The position numbers were made by a program, and so were the translations under genes. From NCBI GenBank assembly GCA_014871385.1, contig CM026426.1, positions 38,533,799 to 38,597,798 on the forward strand: a stretch of 64,000 bases of DNA, read 5' to 3'. Shown here one piece after another: positions 25,086-59,533 of this stretch (its first letter is position 1; the number at the start of each line of letters is the position of its first letter). Under the pieces are notes generated by a model, which was given only the letters and a program-made list of their open reading frames with translations, searched no databases and was not told the origin of the DNA. Source of the stretch: Ceratodon purpureus (Eukaryota; Streptophyta; Bryopsida; Pseudoditrichales; Ditrichaceae).

Positions 25086-25132
25086 GAGGACAGACTTTCG
25101 GAGTGGGTCGTTTAGGGTGGACGAGTACGAAT
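25086..25132 (+). repeat. Left terminal inverted repeat
   Basis: From 25094 to 25132 it is the exact reverse complement of 59487-59525 (39 of 39 bases; it begins ACTTTCGGAGTGGGTC and ends GAGTACGAAT). The outermost eight bases match at only three positions. Confidence 0.9.
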
Positions 25133-26460
25133 CAACTGACAGGGTGGAAGTCCGGGGTAACGGGTGGCAGGCAACGAGAACCAACATCCGTAGGTGCAGA
25201 AATCAATCATCCAACTTCCGGCTACGTACAAATACGATACGACGCGACAGTAACGAACAATACCCCGTTGATGAATACATCATCCAGTATTACACGCGGC
25301 CGTCGTATAATATGAAAATACTGCATACTTAAATACAGATACGTCATATCGATAATTTTAGCAGACGTTCAGGTACCAGGCATGGAAAAGAAGGATGTGT
25401 TTCTCACCTCAGCAACGAAGCATAAAGATAAGACAATATATTCAGTAAAATGCAAGATACCGGGAACTAATGATCGACGGGATTAGGGTCTCCAGTACAA
25501 ACACCACAGAAGCCATGTGACCCGATGCAATAATAGCCGACATTAACTCCAGACTGCATAAATCTATGCAATTTGCATCGATATTAGAAATCAGTATGTT
25601 TTCGCAGTAATTGCAACTCAAAAACAAGAGACCACAACCTTGAATTGCAAATCAGAAGGCACCTGGCGCGGGCGCCATATGCGAAATCGGGCAGCAAAAA
25701 AGCAACAACAACCCAGGATCGTACGATACATTGAGGTAGATGACCCAACCCAGAACTCGAGGGAGCTGAATCAGAAAACTATCGTCCTTCGCAAAACAAA
25801 TCAATGCGAGCATATAATGGGGCCCGATATCAAGGAAATACAAATTATAATGGCGCCAGCGCCAATTGACCTCTTCACGAAGAATGAGATACTGGATCGT
25901 TGAAAATCGAAAGCAATCTATAAATGCCGTTCCCGAAGAAATGTAAAACATAAATGGAATCCACATATTACAATTTCTAGACAAGATATTCCTCCCAGCT
26001 AGAACATTTCGATTAATATAACGAGGGTCCTATTATGCGGATATTGAACCTGCGTAATTACTGCAGTCAGCAAGAAATATGGAGACAGATCATAAACTTC
26101 ATCACCTCTACGGGAACCCTATTATACCCAGCCGGATATTCGCGAGCATGTGTCTTAACCCCATTCGATAAAAGGTGAAAACGATAAAGGATAACGTTGG
26201 GGCACCGCAAGTAGAGCCCATCTACCCAATTCAAGGATGAGAGAATCGCAGATTACCCTAAAAAACTTGGTGCACAAATCGTCACTTATGACTCGTCGTT
26301 GTAGATACCGAGATGACCATTAACGAAATCAGTAACCACTTCAGAATTGGCGCTTCCATGATTATGACAAATGCAATCTTAGGATATCGCAGAGTAGACG
26401 CCGCGTCGTCCCCATGACCTTGTGATGGTGAACTCCAAGAGAGAACCAGTATAACTAGAA
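25133..26460. other. Left subterminal region of the giant element
   Basis: It contains palindrome copies at 25664-25678 (variant) and 25851-25864. A short open frame at 25640-25903 covers both, but I do not support it as a gene. No repeat of the right subterminal region was seen beyond the TIR. Confidence 0.4.
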
Positions 26461-26463
26461 AGA

Positions 26464-27028
26464 GTGCTCACTACAGCCACCCTGGGCTTAGAAGTTAAGA
26501 GGAGCCTCGTAATGGGCTTAGCTTATCAAATGGCACCGAGGAGGCACAGAGCACGGAAGGCCACGGGGCGTATGCGACGCTATGCATCGCGATGGGACGC
26601 CTCACTCAGCGCTCGAAACAGGCGATCTCTGAAGTTTGGACAGTCAGGTATGTTATTTGCCGTTCACATCATTTGTCTTCATCGCAGAGTCTAAGTTTGA
26701 CATTGTTGCAAGCTGTAGCATCGTTCGAATAATCAAACTTTCTGATTATCTTATCGTATGCGCAGAATGCGGCTGCGCATGGCACGCAGAGGTTAGCAGC
26801 ACGACTTGCTACTCACCCAGAATTCAGGACCTCCATACTGCCGAAAGGGTGAGCCTTGCATCAAGAGCCGACGTGACGTCTCTGGAGTTTCGGAACGAGA
26901 AGGGGTCCCTGATCGCCACAGATCCAAGCCACGACGCGGGCCAAACATCAGGTACAGCACTCAAGGACATCGACGTTATTTCGAAATTCTGGGCTGACAT
27001 AGTGAGTGACACAGACAGTGACAAGTAG
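26464..27028 (+). CDS. Unrecognised small cargo gene, probably spliced
   Basis: A basic segment (MAPRRHRARKATGRMRRY, after 26521) runs to a GTATGT donor at 26648. Possible acceptors lie at 26687 and 26782, and a second segment ends in the acidic tail DIVSDTDSDK with a stop at 27026-27028. A run SLASRADVTSLEF lies in between. The exon structure is not settled and I recognise no family. Arg-rich start and acidic end suggest a nuclear protein at most. It sits between the left end and the methyltransferase gene, which converges on it from the right. Confidence 0.3.
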
Positions 27029-27275: not shown

Positions 27276-30200
27276 CTAGCTAGCCGTGCCACGTGAACTG
27301 CCACTTAATGAAGCCTGAGCACTCGTATTGTAGTAAGGACCGTCGAGTTCTTTGAGGTGCTGTTTAAGAGAAAGCATCCGATTATCCTCCCTTCCAATGT
27401 CGGCGCTAGGCTCCACAGCGAAGTCCGATAGGAACATGTTGAATGCAGATGGGTCCTCCTCAAGAGCTAGAATATGCCTGCCACTTAGTTCACATGCTTG
27501 CACCGACAATCCTGTGCAGAATGGTGAATTAATGTTGGAGGTCCACTCTGACGCAACTTTGCAAGAACTGAACGGTATGTTTGCATTCTGCTTACCCATT
27601 GCCCCAGTCAAGTCGAGAACGGCGCTCCCCTTTCCGGTGCAGATTTCAATCATAGACTCCATAAATGCAGGAGCCTTCTGTTTGGAACCTCGATAAGACT
27701 TAGTTCCCTTACATCGCAATAGGTTGTCATCGGTCACAACATTCTCAAGCACATCCGAGGATTCAGGATTCCAATCCATAACCTTGCTTGCGATTTCGTT
27801 AAATCGGAAGTTCACTTGGCTCATAGATCTGCGCCTGAAAACCTTAGCATTAGGAGAAAAATTAGGTCACAAAAAGGCCGTGTAAGCGGCACGTGAGAGA
27901 AAAAAACGGGCGCTGCCCGCGTACTTTTTGACATGGCACTGGCTGTGCCACCTTGCTGCCAGCAACCGCCACGGGGGCTCGAACCAATGACCTCCGAGGG
28001 AGGCGTGTGGAGGGCACATCTACAGTGTCGGGCTGACACAACCTGCCCACTTGGGACCAAAGCCCGAGCTGAGGCATTCATGTCTCACCTGATATTCCGA
28101 GGACCTTTGTTGTGAGTGCGCCACGCAGTTCTGTGCGGGCAGCAACTCTGGCATCCGCTGCCAGCGGCAGAGGTGCCCAAAGTAGGGAGTTCACCTAGAA
28201 AGGGCAGGCTTACACGGCCTTATTTTGAGCTCATTTTTCTCCTAATGCCTTGAAAAGGCGTTTCTGTAAAGCAGAAAAAACACAGGGTATTCAGTTGCAA
28301 GAAAACATTCTAACACAACTGGCAGTAGATGATTAAAAAAAACTTCCAATCTGTAGAGAAGGGGCTCTTACCCAAGTGGGAAAAAAGGGCCTGTGATTCA
28401 CCACATAGAACGTCCTTAAGCACTCCCACTCATTTATCCAAGTCCCTGTCGTCAGCAAGGGCTGCTCTTCAGCAGGAACAAATAGAAGTAGCACACCCGA
28501 GTCTGCCAATACAGCCTCTGCAATATGAAATATGGCTGGAAATGTAAGTTTCCTAATCATATTCGAGACCGGAACCTTCGATTCGTGTGGAAGGGCCGGG
28601 ACGACAAATCCAGGTACTTCAGCATTGTCTGGAGTATTGCAGATTATAAGATCCACGCAGTGCCTGCTCGCGACCTTGTTATGCATGCGAATTCTTCCAC
28701 CTGCAATCTGCAATCAAAAAAAATATTTGTCAAAATGACCTTAAATCAATTGGCGCCGGCGCCATCAGTGTGTCCTCAGGGAATAGACTATCGCTTCGAA
28801 AAACTGAGTAACACCGTGAAACGGTCGGTAAGCTTACACGGGAGCACAACATACTTTAGACGCTGAAAATTTCCCAAGCACAATTCTTACGGACATTTCA
28901 CGACAACGGACTTTAGCAACCAATGCAAAAAGCACCTACACGATTATGAAAAACAAATTTGGCAACAGAAGCTATTTAAGGCGTGGCGCTGGAGCCATTC
29001 AAGCATGACTCGTGATCAAGTTGAAATGGGTCAGGAGTCAATAAGCAGGATGTGGCGCCGGCGCCATTCGGGACGGACTGAATTGTCACGGTGCAGATGA
29101 TTACCTGCTTGATCGCGCTCAGAAATGTAGTGAACACTGATCGATCGATCCCTTCCAAGAAGCTCTCGATCGCAATATTCATCGACAGTTTCACAGTAGT
29201 TTCGACGCCCTCGATAGGGAGAGCTGCAAACTTTACTTGCTGAGATCCGTCTGGTCCTGGCTTTAAGTTTTTTTTCGATGACTTTGCCCCTGCCTTTTTT
29301 GGGACTGTAGCCCCCGGAGAAGGGGCGGGATCATAGTCCTCTTTTTGGGACTACTGCGTCACGTCCAGTAGCCTTGGTTGCAAGTCGTGATGCGATGTCC
29401 TTGGCAGCTGCTGAGCTGCAGTTGCACGGGTTATGGGGGTCTCATCATCTTTCTGGGGTTCGCTACTCATCGACTCGATAGCCCCTATAACATCCCTTAT
29501 AATAGAACTCGAACACTCTCCACCCGATGGCTGCGGAGGTATCTCCTGCCCAGATTTCGCAGCAATAATTTCCTGCAGCTCAGTAAACAATATCGGTCCA
29601 TAATAAGTGAGGATCCCATTGTTAGTAATTGGAACGTACACAGAGTCTGTCGAACCGTATAACGCAGAAAAAAGTACAGACGATATACTAGAAGAAGATC
29701 GTGCAACCGTATCAGTTCCACCATCCTGATCACCCACCGAATTTCGTGAATCTTTGACCTTGTCAAGTGTAGCCTCAAGAATCCGAGCCTTCTCCGCGAT
29801 CGGTGCAGTCGTCACCCCTTTAATCTCGTCTAAAACTCGATCGTAAGTTGCAATATTGCTGTTGTCTAGAAAGTATCGGTCACTTCCGATGTTCTCGATG
29901 TACCATCCCAGCCCTATGAGATGCTGCGAAGGTAGCTTCAGTTGGGACTCGGTGAACACACCCTCCTCTGAATGCTGAAGCCGGTCGGCAAAAACTGGGA
30001 AATTTCCGATATCTTGATCCTCTTTGGGCAGTAGAGAATGCACAACGCCGAGCCACCGCACAAACCTCATCACAAAGCGTCGAACTGCCTTCTCGCCTTC
30101 CATGTATGTCACATGATCCTCCCAACATTTGTGCCTTAGGGGTCCAGCGTCTGTGGTGAAGATTTCGGGGAAGTAATTCTCGAATCCAAAGACCATCACG

Positions 30201-33200
30201 GTTTCAAAGTAATCATCAAATAAAGGCCTTACTTCATCAACCCGTAAAATTCCTATCCCCTTCTCAGGTTTCGTCTTCCCTGCCAGCTCGGTAAACAAGT
30301 CTAACGCCCGGGTACCCATCTGCAAACCACGGATTCACTGATTTACTCGTCAACAAGATATGATATCGTGACACAGTAAAGCAACCAATGCAGTAAAAGC
30401 CCATAAATTCTGGAAAACTTAGCATATAATGGAATGGAAACACATTGTTTCGGGTCTTCAATGGGACTGGAAAGATTTAAAGTTCTATAATGTGTTAGTA
30501 TACCTGCTCCCACCAAGCTCGGCGGTTCAGCCATTTCTGAAAAGCAACCCTGGTAAAATTCATGTCGGGAAAGCGATACCGTTCCTTCTCCTTGCTGGAG
30601 GCATTCCACAGCTTGAGTACCCTTTTTATATCTACCCCTTGCACCCTAACAAGAATGCCGAGGTTGTCCACTGTCATAGCCCAAGGCTTCTTACTCGAAT
30701 TCCTTCGACTGTGGTAATCCAACTCTTCGGTAAGGTGGGGGTGGTACTTTGGATTGCATAGTCTAAAAATCTTCTTCATGTAGTCGATCTTCTCCTTTCT
30801 TACATCCTCAGCCGCATCGTGCTTTGCGGTCGCAATCGACGCAGGTGAGGGTGTCGGGTGTTTAGACATCAGGGCCTTGACAGCTTCACGCTCAGCAGCC
30901 AGTATTTTGCACTGAACAAATTGAAGAGCATCAATAGGTCAGTGCGCAATTAAAATACATCCATGTAGCGATTTTGAACCCTAAAACCAAAAAGCATCAT
31001 AGAAAGCAGCAAATGCAATATCAAAGGGATCTGAAGTGATTCGACACTGTTAGGAACTTAATCCCTTCTTAATACGAGGAGGTCAAAAGACAGGTCATTA
31101 CTAACGTTAAATGATACACTTAATATTTGGAAAGTCGACTACAGTAATTCAAGCATCGCGTAATATCTATGCAGACAAATAGTACTCCTTTGGACAACGC
31201 TATCCAGACAGACCACACTAGGAGAGTGTACACATCATAAAATCAATCTTGCATGAAATAACTGCGTAAATGGATGGAGAACAAGCGCACCTTGAAATAA
31301 ACTTCGACGACGGCATCACACGTCATTTTGTACCAACGTCCTTTGCAGACGTCTTTAATGCATTCTATTTCGCTTGCGGTGAAGTAGGGTTTATACTCCA
31401 AAGGGTCACGCCTAGCTATCTGCAAAACCTCATAGAGAACATGCGCAAGCTGCTTCTTCACGGTCGTGTTCGACGTTCCACTACAGCGACACAAGATAAA
31501 TTCGAATTAACGATCTGAAGCCAAGCATAAAGTCTACAGAGCTACTTCTGGAGACTCCAACAGACTCTCCACATCACAATCCAAGCCAGAACTCTACAAG
31601 AGCAACAAGGTACAATTCAAACGACCCTGAGACTCCATAAAATATTCCGAACTTACGGGCGAAAAAGAATCTGGGCACTACTCGCTTGCATAAGCGCAAA
31701 AAGAACAGCGACTGGAATTAACACTTACTCATTGATGTCCCTCATGAAATTAGAAATCCAGCCTCTGTCGGAGTCAGAATCATTGAGCACAAAGCAATTG
31801 ACTTTGATCGGATCTCCGTTGTGGTCCTTGATGTGTCGCATCCATGCCAATGCACGGTGATTGCCATCCCAGACATGGACATATCGACCGATCATTGCTT
31901 CATAGAGAATTCTATTCTCTGGATCGCTCTCGCACCTTTCTATCAGGTTCGAATCAAACTTTTCAGAAAATATTGACCATCGCGGCAAATCATCAAAATC
32001 AGCGCGGGGAATTACCCAGGGGAACCACAGCAAGTTACCCAAAAATTTGTACCCCAATTTCCAATATCAAACCCATCGTAGACTGTCTGTACGTCTGCTG
32101 GCAAGGCTTGCCGAACCCAGGTCGTGGGCATCAGTCCACATAATGGAATCTCCAACTGCAAAGGCTTGATTTTTCGACTCTCCAAGTGCTTGTGAATGTT
32201 GACCTCGCTAAATAAATTCGCCTGGAACTGCTCAAATGACGACACCGATGGGTTGGGGTCCACACTTCTCTCAATCACTTCCTTCCAGGCAATAGAGACA
32301 TCGTCGGGCACGGGCTCTTTCTCACCCAAGTCCACGCTCGTGCTCTATACAACGGCAGATCAACGAAGTTAAATTCCTCATCAAAATGCAACAGACCGAT
32401 CTGGGAATCCTGGGTAAACTCACCAGTGCAACCATGAACGAAGGCATGTAATTGTGACCTCAGCCAACAACACACACCGGAGCTTAATGAGACGATACAC
32501 CTTGCAAGTGGCGCCGGCTCCATCAGTCTCTATATACCTCGTAGACACAATCCTAGTATCCTCAAAGCTGCAGCATTAGGAAGAAGCGAACAGCGTTACG
32601 CAAAAAGAACCATAGATGCGGCGCCTTAATGGAAGAGACCAACTCACCGAGGACGGCCCAGAAAAATCCGAACCAAGCTAGTCACGTTTCAATGCTCAGT
32701 ATACCAGAAACATTACTCATCCAAATGGCGCCGGCTCCATCTGCATAATAGAATTGCTGGAAAGGCTCGAGAACGTGCATTAAGGCCCATCACCTACTAC
32801 ATTGAGAGTGCGGTATATCGACTGGTCGTTCAAGGGAAGGAGGCGAGAAAAAACATCACTGGATGTATAGATTCCTCGCTCGTAAATCGCGCAATGAGCA
32901 CCACAAACTACGATACCGTCCATGTGGCGCCGGCACCATATGCTTATCAAAGCTCATCACTACTGCTCTAATAGAATTTGTACATAAAACAGTTCCTAGC
33001 GTGTCTTTAAAAAGAACAAACCCGGAGGACCTGGTCCAGACTGCAAGCAAGACATATGGTTTAAGATTGTGGCTTTAATTTGTTTTGCTTGCCAGTCTGA
33101 ACCACATATACTAGTCAAAGATTATAACGGAAGCATATTACGCAATTGAAGACCAGTGCACTGGAAATCCAGCAATCACTCGACCCCCCTGAAATAAAGG

Positions 33201-34062
33201 CTCTGAGAAATACCTTTTAATCCTTTAGCAGCGGTTTGGTGCCAGCGCCATGACTAACCACCTTCGGTACTCAAGATTCAGGCATAAAAGAAAAACTTTA
33301 GCTAAAAGCATTAAGCAATCCACAGGAAGTGCAGATTCCCGGATTGCAAGAAACTATGTAGTTAAAACTAAAGCCCCGCTCGTGACGGCACCCAAACCAT
33401 TAACGTGCTCGGCTCGGGTCTAACTAGGGCAATAAACTGCGGACCTTCTACCGTTCTATGGCAACTTAATATCTCCAATGTGATTCTAAATATAGAGAAC
33501 AAAACTGAGTCAACATTGCTCATTTGTGGTCAAATAGCGCGTAACCGACTCGTAATACTAACGACGGCCCCTGGTGCTTCTCGGAAAACATGCAGCTGAA
33601 TTCGGATACCCTTACGAAATGTGAGGGGATTATGTCACAGTTTCTACCGCCGTAACCCTTAAAATATGAAACAAATCCAACCCATAAGCGACAATTAAAG
33701 GATCGAATGAAACAACGGGCAGGGGAATCATTGTACTACTTACAATCAACCCTCACGACAAGAGGTGACGCGAAATAAGAATCATTGCTACCCTAGGCAA
33801 GGGTATGGCGCCAGTGCCACGACCAACACGAAAAACCGAAACAGGCATATCAAACATCAAATCAACCATGCATCTGGAGGAAGAGGCTCACCGCCGTTTC
33901 AACCATCCCCGGTAAGGTTCCACGCTTTCGCTTGCGACTCCCGCTCATTGTGTCCCCGCTACGCCTTACTTTGCCAAAGCTTAGTAAGGATCCCTTCGCC
34001 GCAACCATAGAACCAGCTGAACCATCGAGGATGCTGTCAAGGAGAAATCCAGTGGACATCAT
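27276..34062 (-). CDS. ParB-like domain plus beta-class DNA methyltransferase, multi-exon
   Basis: The start is MMSTG at 34062; exon 1 (34062-33892) holds the likely nuclear signal SRKRKRG. Unresolved exons follow to about 32424. A ParB-like block (32344-31729) has KPLQLEIPL, then YVHVWDGNHRALAWMRHI (box II-like), with a one-base shift at a G-run near 32052. Exons 31480-31291, 30911-30504, 30319-29105 and 28707-28372 then join in consistent phase. The methyltransferase part has ADSGVLLLF and DLIICNTPDN (motif IV position), then in the last exons GKGSAVLDLTGAMG, which after an 84-bp intron (27595-27512) continues LSVQACELSGRHILALEED (motif I and following). Order IV then I is that of beta-class N6-adenine/N4-cytosine enzymes. 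A TAG at 29351-29353 interrupts an otherwise open exon, and the joint into the 27.8-kb exon is unclear. Motif IV lacks the usual PP(Y/W), so activity is uncertain. Confidence 0.6.
27848..28247. mobile_element. 400-bp inverted-repeat element, copy 2, in an intron
   Basis: It is 400 bp from CATTAGGAG to CTCCTAATG and nearly identical to the copy at 7200-7599. It lies between the exons ending at 28372 and starting near 27830 of the ParB/methyltransferase gene, so it probably inserted into an intron of the giant element's cargo after or independently of the giant insertion. There is no coding capacity. Confidence 0.8.
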
Positions 34063-34245
34063 TGTCCCAGAATTGAACAGATGAAAATGGCTTCAGATCT
34101 GGATGGATAAGACAGGAACTGTTCAGGATCTAAACCTAATGCATAGGGAACAGCAGGGCAACACGAGGAAGGAGCATGACGTGACAATGGTACAGCTTGC
34201 TTTGGAGGATATGGTCAACTGGACATCCCTATTTATTCCAGCGGG
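34063..34245. promoter_or_regulatory. Shared divergent promoter region
   Basis: Only 183 bp separate the start codons of the minus-strand ParB/methyltransferase gene (34062) and the plus-strand transposase (34246), so both are likely driven from here and co-expressed. No clear TATA box or palindrome copy was found in it. Confidence 0.5.
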
Positions 34246-44971: not shown

Positions 44972-45563
44972 GTTGAGACTCGCAACTTCAAATTGTTCGA
45001 AATCAGAATGTGCACCAAAGTTAAGACCTACTTCGACTCTACACTGTTTATATCGAAACAGTGATCATAAAACTTTAATTCAAATGTGGTTTATACTCTG
45101 ATGCTGAGGCATAGTGATTCGGTATAGCTAAATCGAATGTAATTTACATTCTGCAAATTGTGTATATTCAGTACGTAGCATATTTATATAAGGGAATTTT
45201 GCGAGTTCGTCCGATATATTACGTTTTAAAAGTTGATTAAAAAGATGCCTAAATGAAATCAGCGATTGACGCCGGCGCCATCTCTCATTTCGTAATTGAG
45301 TTCATGAATACGCGATTCTGAGTATGACTTGATTGAATTTGTAGTTTTTTTATTGCATAAACTGCACCACATAACGACTGCACTGATCTTTACAATCGGC
45401 ATCTATATGGCGCCGGCGCCAAGTGGTTCAAAATATCAATTAGCGACTACGTATCACTAGTTCCAGAATCCGAGCGTCGACGCTTGTATTTAAAAGAAAA
45501 CAACTGCCTCGCATTAAAAAGCATATAGTTCATCTGAACTTAAAACCATGTAAGCCTTAGGTG

Positions 45564-46199: not shown

Positions 46200-46765
46200 A
46201 ACAAGAATCTACTTCTACATGGAACCAAGAGAGGACAGACAAATGAAGAGCCTTGCAATAGCTTATATGGCTTTGTCCCACCCTGAGAAACATGCCAGCC
46301 TATAGCTGCCTTCCTAGTTCATATTAACTTGAAATACGTGAGCACTGATTGAGAAGTTCTAAAACAAGTTTAGTACAGATCCGTGGCATTACTCATCTGA
46401 GAATTGACGGTTTGGTATGCAGTGCCATGCGACGTGGCTTTTAATAGGCCTGACACTGACATTACTGTCATCGGACGTTAACTGCTCCTAGGATCTCGTT
46501 CCTGCTATATTGCGTAACGCGCCCCGACCTCGATCGTCGGACTCTGAAAAGTTACTGCCGTAGTCCAGACTTGCAGGCACAGTTTCATAGAGTAAAATAA
46601 CGATATTTAGTGGACAGACCGGCAGGCCCACCGTGACACTTCCCGGTTACACAATTCGTGGGATACCGTGTTTCGACCAATCACATTATTTGTTATTCTT
46701 TTTTAAAGTTTTTTTCTTGAAGCAAAATTCATTGCAGAGAGATAATATTTGTTAATTTTCAGCAG

Positions 46766-46981
46766 ATGAATGGCTTGCGATCACTGACATCTTGCAAGTC
46801 TCGCATGAAGGACGTGCTGCACCTTGCCGAGACATTGAGTAGTGCCGTGTATGGGTTTTTTATCGATTTTGAATATAAATTTCTCGCACCTCGGATTAGG
46901 CGTAGAGAAAGCGACCAATCATCATTCTACAGTCGGGGGTCGGAAGGCTATGCATTCAGAAACAATGGCGTGGTTCTGTAA
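46766..46981 (+). CDS. Possible small exon or gene
   Basis: A 71-codon frame follows a TTTTCAGCAG acceptor-like sequence: MNGLRSLTSCKSRMKDVLHL, then FEYKFLAPRIRRRE. It may be one exon of a gene I cannot complete. A T-run with a CATTGCAGAGAG motif just upstream (46700-46740) looks like an antisense retroposon tail. Confidence 0.2.
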   Translation: MNGLRSLTSCKSRMKDVLHLAETLSSAVYGFFIDFEYKFLAPRIRRRESDQSSFYSRGSEGYAFRNNGVVL

Positions 46982-47123
46982 CAGTAAAATACGAGTTTGA
47001 AGTACTCACAAGTTCGAGCAAATTATAAAACTTTATATCTATGAATGAACCGATCACAATGCAAGCTAAACAATGAAGAGATCCATATAGTTAACTGTTC
47101 AAGCAAACATTACGAGAGGATGG

Positions 47124-47657
47124 TCAAACTGAATTGCTTCCCCGACTTTTGACAACGTCATCGGCATTTGCAGTGGGTGGAGGATAAATGACGGTGCGAC
47201 CTGGCTGACCCTCGGCTCCTGGAAAGTACGACATCGTCAACCTCCGCCGCCCTTCAATCCTCGGAGCGTCGAGCGCCGCTGCAGATAGTCGCGTGGCCTC
47301 CGGGTGAGTCAGGTCCCTTACAATGGTATCGTGCAAGCTTAGTATTCTCTGCGCGCGTGATGGAGTGTAACGTCGCTGCATAGCGTTGCTACCTGAGAGT
47401 ACAGGTTCGAGAAGCCTTGGGTCGTCATTTGGATGAGCATCTCGCGGACTCTCCGGAGGAGTATGGTAAACCTCGTCTCCTTCCTCCAAGAACGATCGGA
47501 CCTCTGCCTCCTCCTCTTCAATCACCAATGTCCGCTTCAATGTCTTCCAGACGCCCACACTCACCTTCTGGTATCTTCGCTCCTCTAAGAGACTGACGCG
47601 GTTCACATTGCCGTGCAAACTCCGGGCGGTAGGAGAGTCCGGGTGGCGGCGATCCAT
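47124..47657 (-). CDS. Unrecognised 177-residue cargo protein
   Basis: This is a single uninterrupted frame starting MDRRHPDSPTARSLHGNV and ending KSRGSNSV. It has an acidic run (VIEEEEAEVRSFLEEGDE), a Pro-rich stretch (HTPPESPRDAHP) and charged, low-hydrophobicity composition, so it is probably largely disordered. No motif was recognised. It is one of the few cargo frames with no stop or shift. Confidence 0.4.
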   Translation of the reverse strand: MDRRHPDSPTARSLHGNVNRVSLLEERRYQKVSVGVWKTLKRTLVIEEEEAEVRSFLEEGDEVYHTPPESPRDAHPNDDPRLLEPVLSGSNAMQRRYTPSRAQRILSLHDTIVRDLTHPEATRLSAAALDAPRIEGRRRLTMSYFPGAEGQPGRTVIYPPPTANADDVVKSRGSNSV

Positions 47658-50600
47658 CTTGGAGATATGCTGACGGGAACCCCGTGATCGTGAATAAAGG
47701 AGTCTTTCCCAGAATTTCTAAAAAACGACTAGCAAACGTGCGGAGGTCGCCTTCAGCAATAGTTAGTGTATGCTAGATTTTAACCCACCAAGCGATTGGA
47801 GGCGGTACACCCGACATAATTGCATTTTGAGTTCAGCGCTCGCTAGGCTCGCACAGCCTCGCTCAGAAAGCAGGAAGTGCGCATTCATAGGCCGGAAGTG
47901 GCAAAACATGCGATACTCCTCTAAAACAATAAACAAAATGTGAGACTAAAAGAGGCATATCAAGAAAACATCCGGTTGAAAATCCAATTGGTGTTATCAT
48001 GCCTAGAGATTGTAATAACATGAACATATAAGAATTTTTGAATAAAAAAAAATTACACATGTAATTGAATTTTTGAAGTTCAATGTGTCCAATAAATTTT
48101 GGAAAGATTAACAATCCTAACACAATTAATCGCAAAATCTTGAAAAACTGAATAACTCTCTTTAAGGTGCTAAAAATACACCTTCATAGAAATATAAAGC
48201 GTCTGACCAAATTCTTAAAACTAGACTATATTACAATTATGGATTTTGGAGGTTTAATAACATGAATAATACACCAATTTAGCAAATTGTACAAAAGAAA
48301 ATTACTCACGAATGACAAGCTATTAAGCATGCAGAGAGTTTTTGTTTTGTTGAATTTTTTAATATTTTGATTATTTAAGCATTTTTTTATTAATTAGAAT
48401 ACAATCAGTTAAATGAGTAACTAATTAAGTAAAGGAGTACCAAGTTTTTTTTTTAATTATTATTATTTTTTTTAAGTTTTTAAATTTTTGATAGCAAAGG
48501 TGAATTTATTCCATTGCAAAGTAATACAAAAATACTAACTCCGGTGTACAATCGAGCCGGCATTGTAAATGATTAAATTAAGTCTCAAAAATAAAACTTA
48601 ATAGTCATAAAATTATATAATCAATCTACCGAGCGGGGTGAGACAAGCTGGAATAAAGGCAAAAGGTCATAGGTCGGACTTATTCATTGTTAAGTCATTA
48701 ACCTTCACCCAAAACAACGATATCGAGGTAGCTAGAATTGATCACAATCAATTTTGGATTTCATAGCCGTTTCTTTATTGTCCATATAATCTTTAAAATA
48801 AATAAAACTTTAAATTATCAAAATCAAGGAATTACGATGCAATAGGAGGACATATCAATATATAATCACTTGACCCAATCAATCCAATTAATTTTATATT
48901 TTTTGAAAGAATCGAATGTAATAGTTGAATTATTAATCGTCACTTAATAAATATTTTTTCTTTTTAGAATTATCATCAAAATATATAACTAAAATAATTA
49001 GTGTATGAATCAAGAAAAGGAAATAAAATCAATAGATAGAATAAAATATAAATTATGTGAATACCTAGATTTCAACCAAATACGAAAATGATAATGAACC
49101 TAAAAACTACCTGTTTCAATAACCATGACCTTTAAATTAAAATGCACGTCTTTTTTTTTGGGGAGCACATTCATATTCATTAATTTCAAGGACTCGTGTT
49201 TATACCATTTTAATTTTAAAAAAAAACCTAATGACTACGTTTTATAATAAGCATGAGGTTTAAACGAGATGTGTAAAATTCATTTATCGTACTTTCGTAA
49301 ACATGTCAAAATGTTATTAGTATTAAAGCTTGACACACTTAAGTCATAGAAATATGGTCTAAAATTAGCAGAAAATAAATTTCTTTTCAACAAATATTAT
49401 ATTTTTCAATGGAGTTGGTTTTTAAAAAATTGTCGTTTTATAAAACAAAAAATTATATTAAATCATACATTTAGATTTGATTAATACCAAGAAAAAATTG
49501 GTTTGTATGACAAATACGGTTTTACTACAAATTCATATGCATGATGTGGGATTTGAGACTTTAAAATAATATTTGATTTTACAAACTTAATGGCGTATTG
49601 CTAATTAAACAAATTCAACAAATATTAAACAACAACGTGCTTATTACAAATATTTTAAAGAGAATCAAAACTCAGTATCAGTTCATTTTTAAGACTTTTT
49701 TGTGACCTTAAATATACGAACCGAAATTGCATTTTGTAGAATCTTAAGAACTATAATTTGATTTGAATAAAAATGTTACAAAAGTCGATTCTGGTTGATA
49801 ATACAAGGCGATTTATTGTCTGTTTAACCTTTCACAAAAAAAATTAAAAAAATTATTGTCATAAAAAGGAACAGTAAGGGTTTTGTGATGTGCACTGAGC
49901 GAACTGAATATAGTGGTTAATACAAGATGTATTATTAATCTAGTTTAATTTCGAAGAATCTTAGCAATGGTCTGTAAAATCTGAATATAGTCCTTACAGA
50001 ATTTGCTCATTGTATTATTTGCAGTAATTGTATAGGAAACATAAAGTTACAATCTCGCTGATGGTTTCATTGTGAATCTAGAATTTAGAAAATGGAAGTT
50101 CTTGCATTGAATATGAATAAATGTAAATTCAAACGGTTTGTTTGGAGGAAAACATACAACGGATAGCCTTCTTCGCAACCCTCCTTTCCTTAGTAACTAC
50201 CAAAACTAAATAATAAATTTGTTTGCAGCTAAAATTAAAGTTTTTTTTACTGTAATGTTTGTTAGAATAAACGTTATTTAGCTATATAATAAGTCAAAAG
50301 TGTCTGCAAATCTTTAATTGCTTAAAAATTAGTATTGACAATAATTAAACAAAAATAATGTCTAAAAACCGACTGTAAATGACATTGTTGATAACAATCG
50401 GCGACGTATAAATCCAACCTCTAGATAGCCATCGCTACCTTAAAGCACACAATTGAAGTGATATGCTAACTAGTGAACATTTGTGAGTTAGAAAGTCGCA
50501 ATTTCAAAATTTCTAATACTCTTTTAAGGATAAATAAGTCAGCGTAAGTGATCTCTTTATGTGCAGTAGGTTTATTCAATTCGACATTTCATAGGGATTC

Positions 50601-52179
50601 ATATCTAGTCTTTCATATGAAAACTCGCGTTGGAATGAATGTTTGACTTTTAATAATTTATACATGACATCTGTTGGTAGTGTTCCACTGTTCACTGACT
50701 ATTTTTATCAAATCAAAAATGATATATCATGTCTTTTAATCTGATTTTCTTTGTTAAAAATTTAAACGCTTTAATATAATAATTGACTAAGAAAAATGAA
50801 TAAATTCATTTAACAAAAAAAATTCATTGTATTCTAAAACGCATAAAAAACTTTGAGGATAAAATGAGTAAGTGATTTCAAAAAACAAAAAGTATTTGGA
50901 GGGAAAAATTCATTTATTTCTTTTAGTAGAAATAAATTTATTGATTTGGAAAGATGAAGTATATAAATTAGAAAAATGAATGAATTGAATCTATAAATTG
51001 GCTAAATTGAACCCAAGAATTTGATTTAATTGAATAAAGACATTTTAATAAATTAATTAAATTTTATGCATTAATTGAAAATTGAATAATCTATTAATTT
51101 GTATTATTTTAAATTATATAACTTCGAGACTTCTAAGATCCAAGCAAGAAGCCCTTAAAAAATTTGTTGGAATAGATATGTTGCTCTTTAAATGATGTTG
51201 GCATTAAAAAAAAAAAACAGTAGGAATGTTATTTGAGTTGATTTCACCAGTTATTGAGTTTAAATGTGAAATGAAATTAATAACGCTTGACATATGTAAA
51301 AGCTATGACATAACATTCTTATACATGGATTACGAGGTAAATTAGAAAATATGGTTTAAATAAATGAAATTTACGACTATTGAATGGAGAATCATTGCGT
51401 TATGTTCTAAGTTCAAGATTTAATTTTATGTTATCTATATTATGAATCACAGGAAATAAACAAATTTTTTTTGAATATTTCAAAAGTGGTCGTGGTAAAG
51501 AATTAATTAAAAAATTGATTTTATGAATATACAAATTTATTAATTTAAATAAATTTAAACCAAATATTTTATGATTTATAAACTAGATCATATAATAAAT
51601 CTCAAATTTCGAGAAGGCTATGACTTCATTTTTAAATTATTATGGAGTGTGAATTTCTGTAGGAGTGGTGAGCTATCCAAGTATGTACTCAAGTATGTCT
51701 GTCAACTGTAGAATATGTTTTGAATTTTTGGAAAAAGATTTGAAAAAATTTGAATTTGTTGAATAAACTATCTTTCCGCATGTAACAATTACAATCTAAA
51801 AATTATCAAGACACTTAACCCTGAAAGTCTTTGAGTTGAGTTGTGCGACCTTGTACTTTCTTTACTTGGAATGGAAAATTCGTCCTTTCTTACAAAGAAA
51901 AAAAAAATAATTAAAAGGAACTCTAATTTAGTAATTTAAGGCATTTTATCGTAAAATACTATTACATTTAATGAGTTATATTTACTATTCATTCTAATTG
52001 CTTCTTGGACTTATTACTCCATCACAATATGAGAATTAACCTCAGCATCAGATCATATTGAGAATTTGCCAATCTAGAAATTGTACCACTTCATGCCATT
52101 CCTATGGTTTTACTTTGCAGGTCATTCGTGTAACATGAGCCATTTCCGTTAAAAACTACTATTTAAATGTCATCCTAGG

Positions 52180-52290
52180 CCCTACCGCCCTAAGACCAGG
52201 GCTCTTGGAGTCCCTTGGCAGTTGTACCTTTCTTTGCAGTAATTTAATGGATTACTTGTCTTCCAAAAAAAAATAAAAAAATGTAATCCT
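52180..52290 (+). mobile_element. LINE-type 3' tail, sense
   Basis: AAGACCAGGGCTCTTGGAG, then CCCTTGGCAGTTGT, then CTTTGCAGTAATTTAATGG, then an A-rich tail. The same series occurs in reverse orientation at 52990-53095, so these are two members of one poly-A retroposon family. Confidence 0.6.
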
Positions 52291-52989
52291 AAGTGAGAAA
52301 TATTCAAATATAATCCAATGTAGGGCTCTTTGAGGTCTTTGCAGTTGGACATTGTTTTACAACAATCTTATAAATTAGGTGTCTTGATAACAAAAAGAAT
52401 AACAAAATATAATCCAATAGACCCAACCGCCAATCCATACAATTTTTTTAACTTTTTTTTGACACAAACGAGAAAATTCTATTAACCGTTGCAGAGAATG
52501 GAAATTTCATACCATTTTGACGATGATGACGATGAATGAATGGTTACGATACTCATCCTAGTCACAAATTCATTTTGTTTCAATTCATTTTTATTTTATA
52601 TTATTATTTTTCTTTAAAGCCAATGGTGACTTTATTCCATAGCAAATTGACGAAAACAAGTAACCGTCGCGCAACTGGGAAGCAAGAAGCAACCGGCATG
52701 AACCAAACCATACCATTTCTAACCAAAAAGCAAATACCTTACCTACCTAAGACAGTAACGCCGGATCATTATCTAAGTCTGATATGGGCATGTAATGTTT
52801 TACTTTGAAACAACTGGAACCGTCACGAATTCATTTCCTACTCTACTACTTGTCATTATATTCATTCGTTACTCAGCACTAGCGATTGTATCTTGTCGAT
52901 TTTTACACATAAAGAAGAATGCTAGGACTATTCTAAATGTTACTTCGAAAATATACACTGAGCTAATCTAAACAAGATGACATGCACCG

Positions 52990-53095
52990 TAATTGTTTTT
53001 TTTGATGAAACGTATTAAAGTTGTTAACTGCAAATAAAGCAAACAACTACCAAGGGCCCAAAGAGGCTCTGGTCTTAACAGGAACAAGCAAAACT
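52990..53095 (-). mobile_element. LINE-type 3' tail, antisense
   Basis: On the minus strand it reads AAGACCAGAGCCTCTTTGG, then CCCTTGGTAGTTGT, then TTTATTTGCAGTTAACAAC and a poly-A tail. It matches the sense tail at 52180-52290. Confidence 0.6.
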
Positions 53096-53130
53096 TACTA
53101 AGAATCCAAAGTCAAAAGCAAAGAATTAAA

Positions 53131-54194
53131 TTAAGAGGACGTCGAGGAACCACTTGAGCACCAGTTGGCCACCATTCGTTGTCCAGAGCCCAGCCGGGTC
53201 TCAGACACCACTATACACTGATAATTTGGGAAATAGCCTGGGCAGCCTTCTGTAGATAGCGCCGGCGCCATGATAATGAACCTAAGGAGTTCCATATTGC
53301 ACTTATATGCATTGGACTGAATTAGGCCAAAGTAGTTAGAATTAATATGCGATAGTTTCAAACACACCAATGTTTACTTTTCATTTCTATGCAATGGCAT
53401 AATGTGATTTGTCTCGAATAGAAAAAAATTGAAAAAAACACACAAGTGTTATTATTTGTGACCTTGTCCTAAACTAGATACAGAACAATTCTACGTTGAC
53501 GAAGCAGAATTTGAAATCTAGTTCTGACGCGGAATTGGCCATATCCGTGATCAAACTGGAATAAGTTTTTTAATTTTTATTGGGCACACATACAACTCTC
53601 CGGCTGGTGGCGCCGGCGCCATTTCAAGTCTGGTATAATTTGTCAGTGAGTGATTCATCGACATGGTTCAGGTGCTAATCCAATACGATGATTACCCTGG
53701 GGGAATGGTTTAATATTTTTTCCACTTGTTGATGAGAGTTTAACGTGACTTAGTAGGGAGCCTCAAGTACTAGCCTACAAATTATCTGGCAGATTATTGC
53801 CAATGACGTAAACATTTTTTATTATCATGAGACAGATATCCGAAATGTCCAAATTTGTTGGGTAAATCTTCGATAACTTAAACTTATGTATTTCCTTGCA
53901 TCATTTGGAATGGACTTGTTGGGGTTCGTGAATGAGTTATAATCAATGTCGCCACTTTGCTGCATTATGTGCCTGAGGTTCGTTTTCAAATCACTCATAT
54001 CGTGAGCAGTCTGAGTTTTACACTTGGCACCCGTTTCTATACCGGGAGCAGTCTGAGTTTTACACTTGACACTCCTTTCCATACACTAGAGAGGAAGCGA
54101 CAAATGAACTTAGGGAGCTGTGGGAAACTGGGAGAGTTGAGGTGGGTGTGGTTGGTCGAGAAGCGTTCTTTGTTTAGCGGTCCAGTCTATCAGC
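53131..54194. other. Spacer with two palindrome copies
   Basis: Palindromes start at 53257 and 53608. A 30-bp-scale direct repeat near 54000-54080 (GAGCAGTCTGAGTTTTACAC twice) precedes the second RING gene. No gene is supported. Confidence 0.45.
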
Positions 54195-55598
54195 ATGGAC
54201 GAGTTGTGGAACGCAACGTTCTTCGCAAAGAGGATAGGCCTCCCTAATCTGGGTTTGGATCCGAGCAGGGATTGTAATCACGTGAGAGACGAGGAGTTGC
54301 GGTATATTTTTGGAGAGAGGAAGCAGGGGTCAGGGTACGACTACGTCAATGCAAGGTCCAAACGGGTGAAGGATCGGGTCGTGGAGCTTTATCTTGTAAT
54401 TTTCCACCCTACGTACCAGAGAGCTTTGCGAGGGCAGTTGTTTCCGAGGTCTGTCATCACACCCTGATGAATTGGGCCAAGTACGCGGAGGATCGCTGGA
54501 GTAAGGGCAAGAAGGTGCAGAATGGGGAGCCGCTAGTGCTCTACCGAGGAGACGACAGAAGGTTTACTTATTTCGAGAAGATTGATCGGCGACTAGAAGA
54601 GCAGATCCAGGAGGCAGAGAATCAGTGGAGGAACTCTGCGGCAGAGCATAGCAAACTAGTTGAGGAATTACAGAGTCTTTCCAGCGTTGACCGACTCCAA
54701 GGGAATGATCCTAAGAGGGCGATGTTGGAGATCGAACTCCAATGTCTAAGGGAGAGCTTGGGTGTGACCGAGCTACGGTATAGGAAGAGGATAGCAGTGA
54801 AGTGTAAGGTGGATGAGAGCACCGACGATCTCCTGAAGAAATGGTACTGCGAAGAAATTGAGTGTGATCTTAATCAAATGGCGGAGCTGCAGAAGAAGGT
54901 CTCGGAGAAGCACAACGAACTGCTTCATCTTGACCCTGAGCTCCAGCAGGCTGTTTTGAAGGAGCAGCGGCTCGATTTGGTGCAGCAGGAGGAGAGGGCA
55001 GTGCTCGATGACTTGAAGGCGTATCACAAGAAGCTCGTTGACCGGTCGACGGTTCCACTCCTGCGAGCTCCATCGCCACATTTGGAAGCTGACGATGAAG
55101 ACGATCAAGGTACAACGATCCACATCTCGAAGTGCGCATTATGTCACCAAGGGTTTCCGATCAAGGATGCTATCATCGCCCCGTGCAACTGTGCGTATCA
55201 CCCCTGGTGCGCCAGTATGCACTGCTGGATAAGTCCGAAATGTGCGACTGCTAGCTGCTGCAGTGTTTTTCCGTCTCCATGGCTCAAGAGCTTTGGGTAT
55301 TTCGATATTGGAGGTAAGATATTATCAACAAGTAATTTTCTAGAGAGATTGGGCTTCAATGTCACTCAACACTTTCCCTTGCATTAATGACCTGCAGTCA
55401 CTATGACCATTCTGTGTAAAATTTGAATTTTGGAACGCTGGTTGTCATTCTGTAGATCCAATCCAAGCAGAAGTTGCGGAAGGCAGCGGAGATCCGTCAA
55501 GGAAACGATCAAGGCACCTCAATTCCGCTATTGGAGGATATAACTACATTAAGAAGGAGAAGTCTTCAACCCCCGGCCGCAGAAAGAGTAAATCCTGA
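54195..55598 (+). CDS. Coiled-coil RING-like protein, cargo paralogue 2
   Basis: The start is MDELWNATFFAKRIGLPNL at 54195. Near 54434 the frame changes by one base at a GGG run, so that RALRG continues as AVVSEVCHHTLMNWAKYAED. A long coiled coil follows (EEQIQEAENQW, then ELQKKVSEKHNELLHL). The finger reads CALC, HQGFPIKDAIIAPC, NCAYHPWC and later Cys pairs, then PSPWLKSFGY. A GTAAGA donor at 55314 and an AG acceptor before 55456 join in phase to a basic tail (PSRKRSRH, KKEKSSTPGRRKSKS) ending at 55598, a likely nuclear signal. It is paralogous to 40924-41967, with the last metal-binding pair less regular. Role is probably ubiquitin-related or protein binding, by family. Confidence 0.6.
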
Positions 55599-57726
55599 AA
55601 CATCAGAGTTTTTCGAGGTCGGTTATCCAAGAGAATTAACTGTTATGGAAAAAGCTATTGAATAGAGTTGAGTTCAAGTGCGTCCCTGTTCCATGATTTC
55701 TGAATTCTGGGATTTAAAAATTATCTGTAGTTGGTCTTGTAACATGGTGATTCTCCTTTCCGAGGTAGCCTGAATTCTTTGGTCACTTAACTGGTACTGA
55801 TATTTGTATTGTTTTGTTTTTATTTTTATTTTATTAAGTCAGATGGTGAATTAATTCGTTTTTAACCTTTGCACGACGTTCTCTTTATACCTGATGTCCT
55901 CTACAGATAATAAGGTTTGTTTTGCAAATAATTTCGACTCTCTATGTTTTAGCCGATTGCTGTCCCTGCGCTTATTCTAATCCAAGATGTTTGTCATTTT
56001 TTGATCAGATGCTGAGGGGAGCATGGAGCATTTGAACTTTACCTTTCACTGATCTGGGAGATTTTTTGGGCAGTTGATTTTGACATGTACGCAAGGATAT
56101 ATAAGATCTTGAACGAATATTTTTTGAATGTTTTGACCATAGAATTTAGTTTCTCTACTTAATCTTGATGATATCTATGGAACTTTTTATTTGCCGGTTA
56201 CCACAAGCTAGGCAAACATTCTGGCCTAGAGAAGCGCTAATTTACTTTTTATTTTAAGACGCATACTGTCTTGAGACTACACAAACTTTGGATATTGTAT
56301 TTGTGACAGCTTGCTAAGGCCTTTAGCTAGTAAGTACTCCCTCTTACTCTTGAACCTTGAATCGTTGATTTTACAATTAACGTTGTCTGGAGAGAAAGCC
56401 GTATGCCAATCTTTTAACGTTATCCAAGCACTTGAAGTGTAATAGATACGTTGCTAAAGGTTTTAAATTTCACGTTTTTTGTGACTGGCACTTTTTTTTT
56501 TCTTTTTGAAGACACGTAATAAACTTCATTACTGCAACGACCGAATACACCTGCCAATTTATTGCAATGGAAGTTCACTATTTGACTCAAAAAAGAAAAA
56601 AATACACCGCAAGACCCTGGTGTTAAACATCTGCCACAAACTGAGATTATTGGAAGGAATGACAGACGCTTTTTCATGGACAAGTGCCTATATAGTTCAC
56701 AAGTTTGATTTTGTTTGCAGTGTGAGGTTGTGGCGCTCTTTCTTATTATTGCGCGACCGCTGGAAATATTTAATTGAACATCATGTGGCGCCAGCGCCAT
56801 ATGTGAGTCCACCACTGTTATTCTGAACTGCTGGTTACCATATTCTGACTGGCTTCTTTATTTCGTTCAGCATGACAGTGAGCATGGGCAGGTGGTCGCG
56901 AAGGCTACAGTATAGAAGGTGAAAATCACATTGAATTTCAATAAGTTTACTGCTTTAGCACGCGCCCTGGGCTTAAATCATGAGAATTCGACCACAACAT
57001 CTGAAATCTGCAGATGGCGCTGGCGCGGGTTGCAGTTTATGCTAGATGAGCGTGTGTATAGATGAGTGACAATGTTTCAAAATACATGTCAGTTTCGTAA
57101 CTATTTTGTTTATGGGGTGCTTATATTTCAATCCCCATACATATTGTGTTTAGGAACTAAGCCTAGCTTGGAACTACCAAATGTTTTTTTTTTTCTTATG
57201 AATCAAATGTTTTGGAGCTTTACTACCAAATTGTTTTGGAGTTCGAATTATCTTAATCACTGGGTTCAACTATATTGCTGTTACCCACTGTCAGTATGGT
57301 TTGAAATGAGTTTCTTCTAGTATATGATCTATTACGCTTGGTTGAAAGTGATGATTTCCATTCAGCTAGTCATTGATCATTCTTTCTTCTGGGGTAACAT
57401 CGTACTGAAATGGAAATTCCGGCGCATTAAAGCCTGGTCCGGGTCATATCGAGTGGAAACTGAAGTCTTCTAATTTCTTGTGCTTTCGAGAGGCCACTGC
57501 TGTTCCCTTCTGGTAGATAATGGTCACTGTTTCCGTTGCTTGTGATATCTACAGAAATCTAAAGCGGCCCCACCTGCAAGTCCATACAAATTCTCGCTGA
57601 GAGTCTGCTCATTCTCATCATCAGTGTTCAACATCTCAGGCTGTTCGTGGAGTAGATTTTGGTTTAGAAAGTTCAGTCTTCAAACGGAGTGAGCATTGGA
57701 GTTTTTCCGGGGTCGCAGCAGTCATT
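55599..57726. other. Spacer with two palindrome copies
   Basis: Palindromes start at 56786 and 57015 (variant). A T-run with ATTACTGCAACGACC near 56490-56540 looks like an antisense retroposon tail. No gene is supported. Confidence 0.45.
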
Positions 57727-58694
57727 ATGGAAGGAGTTGATAGGCGGAAGTGCAAGAAGAGAACATCTGCTGTATTTGAGTGTAATTTTGAGTGTGTGGG
57801 TGTCAGTGACTGGGAAGAACCTGATTTACCTGTATGGATTGGTTCCGCATTTCGGCGATCTGATGAGTTTCAGCATCTTCGGGATGCCCCAAAGACGTTG
57901 CCCGATTTGATGCAGTGGTTGGAAGGTATTTCGGAGTTTGAAGTAGTGTCCGGGTTGGAGTGCCCAAATTTGAAGGCGGTGTGGGACCTTGCAGCTCCTG
58001 CTTGGTCCGGAGTATGGACGCCGAAGGCGATTCTTTGCTTCCAGGCTGCAGCTAACGCCTCCGGCGTAATGCATCCTCCACTAGGGGTCCGCCTTGCGGA
58101 AGAGTCGACCCGGCCCCAAGTGAGCATGTCTCCTCGATTCGAGAGACGACGCCGAGATCTTTGGGCGCTTGATATCGTTAATGTTCGTCAGCATTGCGAG
58201 TGTAAAACTCGATCGAAAGGAAGGTGCGCACCTCCTCGGGCAGGCGTTTCATCCCCGAATTCGATTCCCGTGATTGTTCTCTCTGACTCTGGGGATGATT
58301 GTGATGGCGCCAGTGAAGAATTGGACGACCGCGTCGACGATGAGTCGGAGAAGCAATCCGAGGATGAACTGTCGTTTCCTGACCCTGCCGGTCATTCATG
58401 CCCAGACAGTTCGCTTGGTAAGTTCACATGTCCCGCCATGTGTTTAATGTTTGTAATATTTTATTTTTTTTTGTCTTTTCAGTTTCGGCATTTCGTGAAC
58501 TCATCACCTCGAGAAACTATGTATTCGTTTGCAGGCGGCCCTTCTTGATGTGGTTAGTGAATCGACGACGTCTGGTGGTGTTTTTTGAACCCTGTGTCTT
58601 GTTAGTACTCTTGGCGCTGGCGCCACACCTATTACACTCTGTTGGGCTAAGTGTTTTAGTTTCGTCCTTAAGTAGTATGCAGTCTCGAGGTTAG
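57727..58694 (+). CDS. Unrecognised cargo gene with acidic C-terminal half
   Basis: The start is MEGVDRRKCKKRTSAVFEC at 57727. A Trp-rich region follows (DLMQWLEGISEFEVV, AVWDLAAPAWSGVWTPKAIL), then a basic stretch (RFERRRRDLWALDIV), then VIVLSDSGDDCDG and an acidic run (DDESEKQSEDELSF). A GTAAGT donor at 58418 and a TTTTCAG acceptor (exon from 58493) join in phase, with the frame then open to 58694; a second possible splice after 58533 would end it near 58590. VIVLSDSGDD resembles SUMO-interacting motifs (hydrophobic core plus acidic residues), which is inference. No family was recognised. Confidence 0.45.
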
Positions 58695-59486
58695 ATTTCG
58701 CTCCAGTATAATTCGGGCCTCAGTTGTTTTTCATTTATAATGACACATTTTGGGAGGATTTTTGCTCCGTTTTATTAAGAATTCCCCTTGCACCAGGCTG
58801 CACCAGGCTATTATTGTATGCTCCATCAGTATATATCTTGTTCGTCTGTTGGGTTAATTTGGGCATTGCTTTGCGTTTTCATTCCTTGTAGTTTGATGAT
58901 TAGACCTAGAACAGAACCTGTGAAACCTTATTTCGAGGATCACCTTCGGTCTTTGGACTTCCTGAATGGCGCCGGCGCCAAATCACGCTTTTGTATTTGA
59001 TCACCTTTATTAATTTTTGGAATTTGCTATGTCGCATGTCGCACAAGATGGCGCCGGCGCCATCTTTCAGATATTTGTATTTCTTCTTTCTGGTGATTGA
59101 TGCTGTCGGCGGTCGGAATCGAACTCGTGTACTACGAGTTATGGAACATCGGTGCAGCCATTTCATCCATTGTATGTTATCAATAACGAAAGCCAGAGCC
59201 CTTCGTCAACCTCCTATACGTTCAGAGGTGTATTACGTATTGTACTCGATTTCTGTATAATACCCAATTATACGTATTTTGGATGAATGAGTTTACTATC
59301 ATTGAACGTGTACTCGTCGTATTCGTCTTGGCACATGTATATGTTAACTCTGAATTCAATTTCTGTACCCTTCTCGGATGAATGATTATCGGCGAGCGCG
59401 TTTCTCATGCTGACACAATTCCAGTCACTTACATACTGGTCCATAGTTCTTACCAGGTAGTCTACATTCTAACAGAATCTGCCTAA
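58695..59486. other. Right subterminal region of the giant element
   Basis: Exact palindromes lie at 58967-58980 and 59049-59062, the closest copies to the right end. The minus strand at 59105-59125 has a B-box-like GTTCGATTCC but no complete tRNA. No gene is supported. Confidence 0.5.
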
Positions 59487-59533
59487 ATTCGTACTCGTCC
59501 ACCCTAAACGACCCACTCCGAAAGTACTACCTT
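59487..59533 (-). repeat. Right terminal inverted repeat
   Basis: The region 59487-59525 is the exact complement of 25094-25132. The terminal eight bases (59526-59533) are only weakly similar to the left end. Confidence 0.9.

Follow-up and report, generated by a model that had tools for sequence, protein, structure and literature searches.

The 64,000-nucleotide stretch of moss (Ceratodon purpureus) DNA analyzed here (the window) contains, at positions 25086-59533, what is very probably a decayed giant cut-and-paste DNA transposon with a gene set of its own and a dispersed palindrome that its methyltransferase-like protein may recognize. The element entered its site as a unit and duplicated 9 bp of the target; empty sites and further copies with conserved gene order are found in the same genome (362 Mb in 151 contigs, including the 110.5-Mb contig C6 on which the window lies). 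A single mobile unit of 34.4 kb had been proposed in a first-pass annotation of the window, and this proposal is borne out by the two ends, the 9-bp target duplication, the paired copies elsewhere and the empty sites. The ends are intact, as was also claimed, but the genes, which carry in-frame stops and frameshifts, have decayed.

Ends, target duplications and empty sites

Judged by its ends, the element (copy A, 34,448 bp) is a complete DNA transposon: inverted repeats bound it, and 9 bp of the target are duplicated. Its perfect 39-bp inverted arms (25094-25132 and 59487-59525), found exactly where the first-pass annotation had placed identical repeats, each lie 8 bp inside the element end; the outermost sequence is GAGGACAG at the left end and, read inward, AAGGTAGT at the right (GAGGTAGT in the sister copies B and C), and the outer 8 bp of the two ends form an imperfect repeat only. 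The flanking 9-bp direct repeat that had likewise been reported, GAATCTCTG, occurs exactly twice in the window, both times abutting copy A, where 0.56 matches would be expected by chance window-wide. When the flanks of copy A are joined with one GAATCTCTG, a genome search finds them without the element at C1:10642805-10643204 (400 of 400 bases matched, at 99%) and again at C6:9461311-9461596 (the first 286 bases of the joined flanks, at 96%; the match resumes 360 bp further on), and direct reading across the join gives agreement at 79 of 80 and 77 of 80 bases, respectively, with a single GAATCTCTG at each site. Since the flanks match two empty sites, copy A jumped into one copy of a repeat of which two others lack the element. 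The search for empty sites that had been recommended thus yielded two in the same genome, and the worry that a related locus might lack the right flank join is answered by the existence of such a site.

With up to three mismatches allowed, a genome search places the 39-mer at six positions (none for the mirrored control), so the fear that no other copies with these repeats might exist is dispelled; the six make up three inverted pairs, with spacings of 34.4, 33.4 and 37.5 kb, and these are the paired copies that had been called for. Perfect duplications flank each pair and differ between them: GAATCTCTG in copy A, ATGACATTC in copy B (contig C9) and TAGAAAAGT in copy C (contig C6, inverted); pairwise identities among the three copies are 97.0, 94.0 and 93.5%. 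A wider end pattern occurs at 88 and 99 genome places on the two strands (mirrored control, 0). From 100 of these 187 ends, a fourth pair, R1, and six further pairs were taken solely because their ends flank a transposase: R1 (C1:675407-718414, 43,008 bp) has GCCCCATGG on both sides, five of the other six agree at 9/9 duplication bases, and in the sixth (C6:51646126-51695430) 8 bp are duplicated, CATGCAGT (8/8), with no match in the 9-bp frame. The target duplication is perfect in every one of the ten transposase-flanking elements, at a length of 9 bp in nine and 8 bp in the tenth; the elements measure 33,372, 34,448, 37,494, 42,280, 43,008, 43,529, 45,097, 47,889, 49,305 and 53,921 bp. Duplications of 9/9 bases are also seen in two short pairs, of 3,051 and 882 bp, that lack a transposase match.

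At least 60 transposase loci, at 53-100% identity, are present in the genome; the 60 analyzed are the best-scored of 2,174 first-look candidates. Eight loci at 53% identity score nearly alike (863.7-864.6 bits), which suggests their recent spread. The family is distributed over autosome-like contigs and C6; enrichment on C6 was considered and rejected (20 of the 60 best-scoring transposases, versus 30.5% of the genome). About 50 of the listed end places are of a type, GAGGCTGTCTTTTCGGAGTGCGTCGCTTAGGGTG, that is present in many copies, often singly or with another about 1 kb away; these ends are not near the listed transposases and perhaps represent a non-autonomous relative.

Gene set and palindrome of the family

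A methyltransferase-like gene lies upstream of the transposase on the opposite strand, 5.2-10.3 kb off, at 55 of the 60 transposase loci, and a RING gene lies downstream on the same strand, 2.5-4.6 kb off, at 54 of them; in each case 0.002 would be expected per locus. The first count uses one place per locus (80 of 202 matches, weaker ones left out) and the second uses the places with stronger matches among 146. The methyltransferase-like gene and a gene near the right terminus (the right-end gene; 31 of 127 places used, weaker matches left out) stand on their expected sides at 25 of the 60 loci, spanning 29.5-57.2 kb; because 15 of these full-span loci fall outside the ten duplication-proven elements, giant size is not special to those ten. 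The first-pass annotation had described a cargo of nuclear genes, a description that is given up here: since the methyltransferase-like, RING and right-end genes reappear alongside the transposase from one family member to the next, they are better read as the element's own gene set than as captured host genes.

The methyltransferase-like gene has seven predicted exons, with the same six GT-AG introns in copy B, R1 and a further family member, R5 (from sequence comparison rather than RNA). The C-terminal part of its product matches PF01555 at E 1.5e-4 (R1) and 9.8e-4 (B), both below the curated cut-off, a phage DNA methyltransferase (tblastn, 21% identity over 87%, E 4e-5) and PHROG DNA methyltransferase families (E 3.7e-5 and weaker); these matches supply the amino-methyltransferase domain that characterizes transposon-borne ParB-methyltransferase proteins. 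The motif order is presumably that of the beta class. In a pairing made by eye, motif IV reads CDTPDN in B, R1 and R5 versus CDLPYN in the phage enzyme (BLAST instead gaps the phage LPYN onto LPHE, 15 residues on), and the protein may be non-catalytic. The N-terminal part is ParB-like by eye only, in a DGNHR-type stretch, and no profile in scans that included Pfam, PHROG and NCBIfam supports ParB. Comparison of copy B with R1 gives a ratio of nonsynonymous to synonymous change (dN/dS) of 0.13 over the full gene and 0.07 over its C-terminal part; the gene is under purifying selection. For the transposase, synonymous change is saturated in this comparison, and R1 versus R5 gives 0.23. Near one end of contig C9 (0.04-0.72 Mb), diverged methyltransferase-like (60%) and RING-like (29-31%) matches are clustered, possibly as another, subtelomeric subfamily.

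A private sequence motif restricted to the interval had been reported, and the counts agree: 44 of the 46 window occurrences of GGCGCC, and all 14 of GGCGCCGGCGCC, fall inside the element. The palindrome TGGCGCCGGCGCCA is present at 793 genome sites, where about 0.3 would be expected from base composition and the mirrored control gives 0. Its exact copies in copy A start at 28751, 29053, 37787, 37997, 38141, 39821, 40295, 43968, 45408, 53608, 58967 and 59049, and it is absent from the 29.6 kb of flanks in the window; copies B and C have 11 and 12, R1 has 7 in 33.1 kb and R5 has 9 in 32.5 kb. Placement was read from 50 of the 793 sites, all on C1, of which 47 fall no farther than 50 kb from one of the five C1 transposases, in a zone that makes up 1.8% of that stretch. 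Within this listed part of the genome the palindrome is concentrated in the elements, for which it is a candidate self-recognition site. Sites with one mismatch recur in A, R1 and R5 in the methyltransferase-like introns, the gap between this gene and the transposase, the transposase frame and the gap between transposase and RING gene. At 37787-38216, within the transposase frame, the palindrome encodes repeated MAPAP in a long proline-rich linker.

Features of copy A and its borders (window coordinates)
Feature	Position	Strand	Remarks
Target-site duplication, left copy GAATCTCTG	25077..25085	+	Single copy at two empty sites
Left terminus and terminal inverted repeat (GAGGACAG + 39-bp arm)	25086..25132	+	End type common to the family
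Probable small gene, conserved protein-level stretch	26506..27016	+ (strand and structure uncertain)	50-56% in R1, R5
ParB-like/DNA-methyltransferase-like gene, 7 exons	27279..32338	-	1,089-1,110 amino acids in copies B, R1, R5
Nested insert of about 400 bp, about 40-bp inverted repeats, like a miniature inverted-repeat transposable element (MITE)	27847..28248		Copy A only (of A, B, C)
Palindrome TGGCGCCGGCGCCA, 12 exact copies in copy A	28751..59062		25 copies with up to 1 mismatch
Transposase frame	34633..39786	+	Single exon, 1,718 amino acids in copy B; in-frame stops in copy A
RING/coiled-coil gene 1	40921..41818	+	315-amino-acid frame in copy B; 70% identical in R1, R5; frameshifted in copy A
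Second nested 400-bp MITE-like insert	44572..44971		Copy A only (of A, B, C)
Conserved gene, two exons	45567..46193	-	73% identical in R1, R5, inverted there
RING-like gene 2	54222..55351	+	35% identical in R1, R5, inverted there
Right-end gene	57601..58548	+	0.98-1.5 kb from the right terminus in ten elements with duplications
Right terminus and terminal inverted repeat (AAGGTAGT + 39-bp arm, read inward)	59487..59533	-	
Target-site duplication, right copy GAATCTCTG	59534..59542	+	

Decay of copy A has affected its transposase frame, broken at 36855 and 38901, and its methyltransferase-like gene, broken by frameshifts and a 400-bp insert; in copy B the transposase and RING frames are both open. 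Neither the right-end gene nor the gene at 45.6 kb could be named from scans of Pfam, PDB, PHROG and NCBIfam. About 100 residues of the right-end gene match many more dispersed frames at 40-50%, so this gene appears to share a domain with another repeat or gene family. At C11:16.03-16.13 Mb a right end with the right-end gene (16027790) and a left end with a transposase (16114193) occur without forming an inverted pair, in what may be a rearranged or split element.

The two inserts of about 400 bp in copy A are related to each other, with inverted repeats of about 40 bp (GCATTAGG.../CATTAGG...), and a 229-bp insert near 33,000 is present in copies A and C and lacking in B. Copy C (C6:21.68-21.72 Mb) contains three inserts (932, 936 and 661 bp) that begin TTAACC(C/T)... 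and end ...GGGGTTAA; these look piggyBac-like, with a TTAA target. In the left flank of copy A, a frame at 11873-13111 matches Transposase_24 (Ptta/En/Spm; E 1.9e-5, below the curated cut-off) and may represent a second transposon. A tandem repeat at 16886-17433 translates as repeated TNVANV / CRQCHQ in several frames.

Mechanism, transposase affinity and competing explanations

In the mechanism proposed here, an element-encoded DDE-type transposase (1.4-1.7 thousand amino acids) would act on the inverted repeats GAGG....TTTCGGAGTG(G)GTCGTTTAGGGTG, and the whole 33-54 kb unit would be inserted via a 9-bp staggered cut; the divergently transcribed methyltransferase-like protein, the RING proteins and the right-end gene would travel along as a conserved set, and the methyltransferase-like protein would recognize the scattered TGGCGCCGGCGCCA, marking or shielding the element against host silencing. 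Cut-and-paste chemistry of the DDE type is suggested by the sequence: D587, D653 and C693xxH696 are invariant in 14 aligned members and E797 is conserved in a 20-row alignment (the triad was assigned by eye), and a SWIM-like CxC...CxH lies near the transposase C end in B, R1 and R5. Together with duplication length and inverted repeats, these DDE/CxxH and SWIM-like residues suggest kinship with Mutator. Mutator-like elements (MULEs) make duplications of 8-11 bp and frequently have SWIM fingers (PMC6446971), a range that includes the 9 bp of nine elements and the 8 bp of the tenth, and the perfect 39-bp arms are short for a MULE and within the published range. That the methyltransferase-like protein would bind the palindrome for an anti-silencing purpose is suggested by analogy with VANC21, which binds a dispersed private motif in VANDAL21 and serves anti-silencing (PMC5735166).

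Several observations weigh against this reading. In its present state copy A is dead; copy C is damaged, and many frames among A, B and C have dN/dS of 0.3-0.8, as in decaying copies. In the searched range 5 of the 60 loci have no methyltransferase-like match (one of the five, C11:17224532, ends 2.7 kb from its contig end) and 6 have no RING match, and at least three transposase loci (C11:16.1M, C6:76.0M and C6:84.7M) have one end only among the 100 of 187 ends listed. Four or five palindrome copies lie in the transposase frame, where the encoded MAPAP repeat could account for them. The 14 family members scanned match no MULE model in a Pfam scan up to E 10, and PF10551, with 93 genome matches (E<=0.001), has none at the 60 transposase loci; the label MULE transposase given in the first pass is supported by duplication length and a few residues, and its profile label is not confirmed. 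Pfam and PDB profiles gave no useful match for the transposase (the 1,718-amino-acid protein has no Pfam match), and PHROG and NCBIfam also yielded no name for it. A single-sequence structure prediction of the copy A catalytic core (mean predicted local distance difference test 35.7, predicted template modeling score 0.27) was not used.

No KDZ model, which Pfam presumably includes, appeared in the scan of the 14 members up to E 10. This bears on the idea that the element is a giant transposon outside the Mutator-like group, in KDZ, Sola or a superfamily that is new or has no name yet, an idea that appears rather unlikely. In its favor, no MULE profile matches the transposase, whose length is that of KDZ transposases (these can exceed 1,300 amino acids), and the published ParB-methyltransferase gene sits on a Sola-1 element (PMC12477816); however, target duplications are 8 bp in Zisupton and 7 bp in Kyakuja (PMC12730594) as against 9 bp in nine of the ten elements here, so that KDZ fits worse than Mutator-like on this measure, and a CxC...CxH and a CxxH after the putative second aspartate are present, as would suit MULEs, in which SWIM is often found (PMC6446971).

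The accessory genes could, alternatively, be unrelated to silencing and act in transposition (target choice, complex assembly), with the palindrome as a transposase site. The recurrence of the palindrome beside and within the transposase frame in A, R1 and R5, and the altered look of the methyltransferase-like motifs, make this a serious, if somewhat doubtful, possibility, whereas the methyltransferase-like gene is as widespread as the transposase (55/60) and more strictly conserved, and VANC21/VANDAL provides a precedent for dispersed private motifs in anti-silencing (PMC5735166). That the two ends belong to separate small elements, as the first-pass annotation had feared, or that the copies arose by segmental duplication, has practically no probability left: short elements with the same ends do exist (3,051 and 882 bp) and small inserts are nested in copy A, but the ten outer pairs have matching duplications that differ per locus, and the two empty sites refute this explanation. 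Size, multi-gene content and the resemblance of the methyltransferase-like domain to phage enzymes would suit an integrated virus or virus-like (Polinton-like) element, which is nevertheless highly improbable; the Pfam-scanned frames, many of which match nothing and which are therefore not an exhaustive test, include no capsid, polymerase or packaging gene, and IMG/VR contains no relative of the transposase (16 candidate stretches, 0 confirmed). Beyond the decayed giant transposon with its own gene set, a broader proposal can be put forward tentatively: land-plant giant transposons may possess self-recognition of bacterial ancestry, in which a ParB/methyltransferase-derived protein, perhaps non-catalytic, would bind the 14-bp palindrome, as in ParB-parS, and 33-54 kb of foreign genes would stay expressed although the genome around them is silenced.

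Relation to known giant elements

ParB-methyltransferase proteins have been published on giant algal transposons, and the accessory protein class is thus already known; Sola1-1_Ec32 of the brown alga Ectocarpus measures 21.5 kb, with related elements in green and red algae (PMC12477816). As in Sola1-1_Ec32, whose protein has a ParB-like and a methyltransferase domain, a methyltransferase-like protein of about 1,100 amino acids (1,104 there; 1,089-1,110 in the moss, with a part that looks ParB-like by eye) is encoded on the strand opposite the transposase, and the moss gene fits the algal description in size, orientation and methyltransferase domain. Unlike the algal element, the moss family belongs to a land plant, is 33-54 kb long and has 9-bp duplications, RING and right-end genes and the palindrome; its motif IV, as paired by eye, is DTPDN versus the aromatic DPPY type, and its ParB part has no profile confirmation. 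MULEs and VANDALs resemble it in target duplication length and inverted repeats, and perhaps in the CxxH after the second aspartate and the SWIM-like motif (PMC6446971, PMC5735166), and VANDAL21 also in a dispersed private motif, there bound by VANDAL21's own protein (PMC5735166); unlike MULEs, the moss family has a conserved multi-gene set and no PF10551 match. KDZ elements, which reach 30.3 kb in Ectocarpus and 31.7 kb in Chlamydomonas, are likewise giant, with accessory genes and a transposase of great length (PMC12477816), whereas KDZ lineages have 7-8 bp duplications (PMC12730594) and the moss family 9 bp.

Like the Starships of fungi, the moss elements are giant, carry genes and move as a single unit; the comparison with such cargo elements made in the first-pass annotation holds for size and breaks down beyond it. 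Starships have a tyrosine recombinase captain and no target duplication of the 9-bp type. The moss family, in contrast, has inverted repeats, target duplications and a DDE-like enzyme, its gene set is conserved where that of Starships varies, and no recombinase domain was found among the Pfam-scanned frames. Pack-MULEs are plant elements whose inverted repeats also enclose extra coding sequence; however, they hold captured host gene fragments that differ from copy to copy, whereas the moss family keeps whole genes, the same ones at most loci, and its size is put at ten times their range (up to 7 kb, PMC6431247).

A literature search found no giant element in a moss (Repbase lay outside its scope, and the family may be known there), and PMC13317346 makes no mention of giant elements, Starships, moss, bryophytes or methyltransferase. 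The apparent novelty lies in the larger size, the land-plant host, a 9-bp duplication and a palindrome shared family-wide, a candidate self-recognition site. A limit of a few kb is assumed for eukaryotic cut-and-paste transposons, for reasons that have been discussed (PMC6431247); ten elements of 33-54 kb with clean duplications make this size limit testable in a plant that can be grown and, as Ceratodon, transformed, and what the accessory genes do and how ParB-methyltransferase proteins function can likewise be tested there. The palindrome lends itself readily to tests of binding and methylation. In such a genome, thousands of "genes", methyltransferase-like and RING genes among them, may be owned by transposons.

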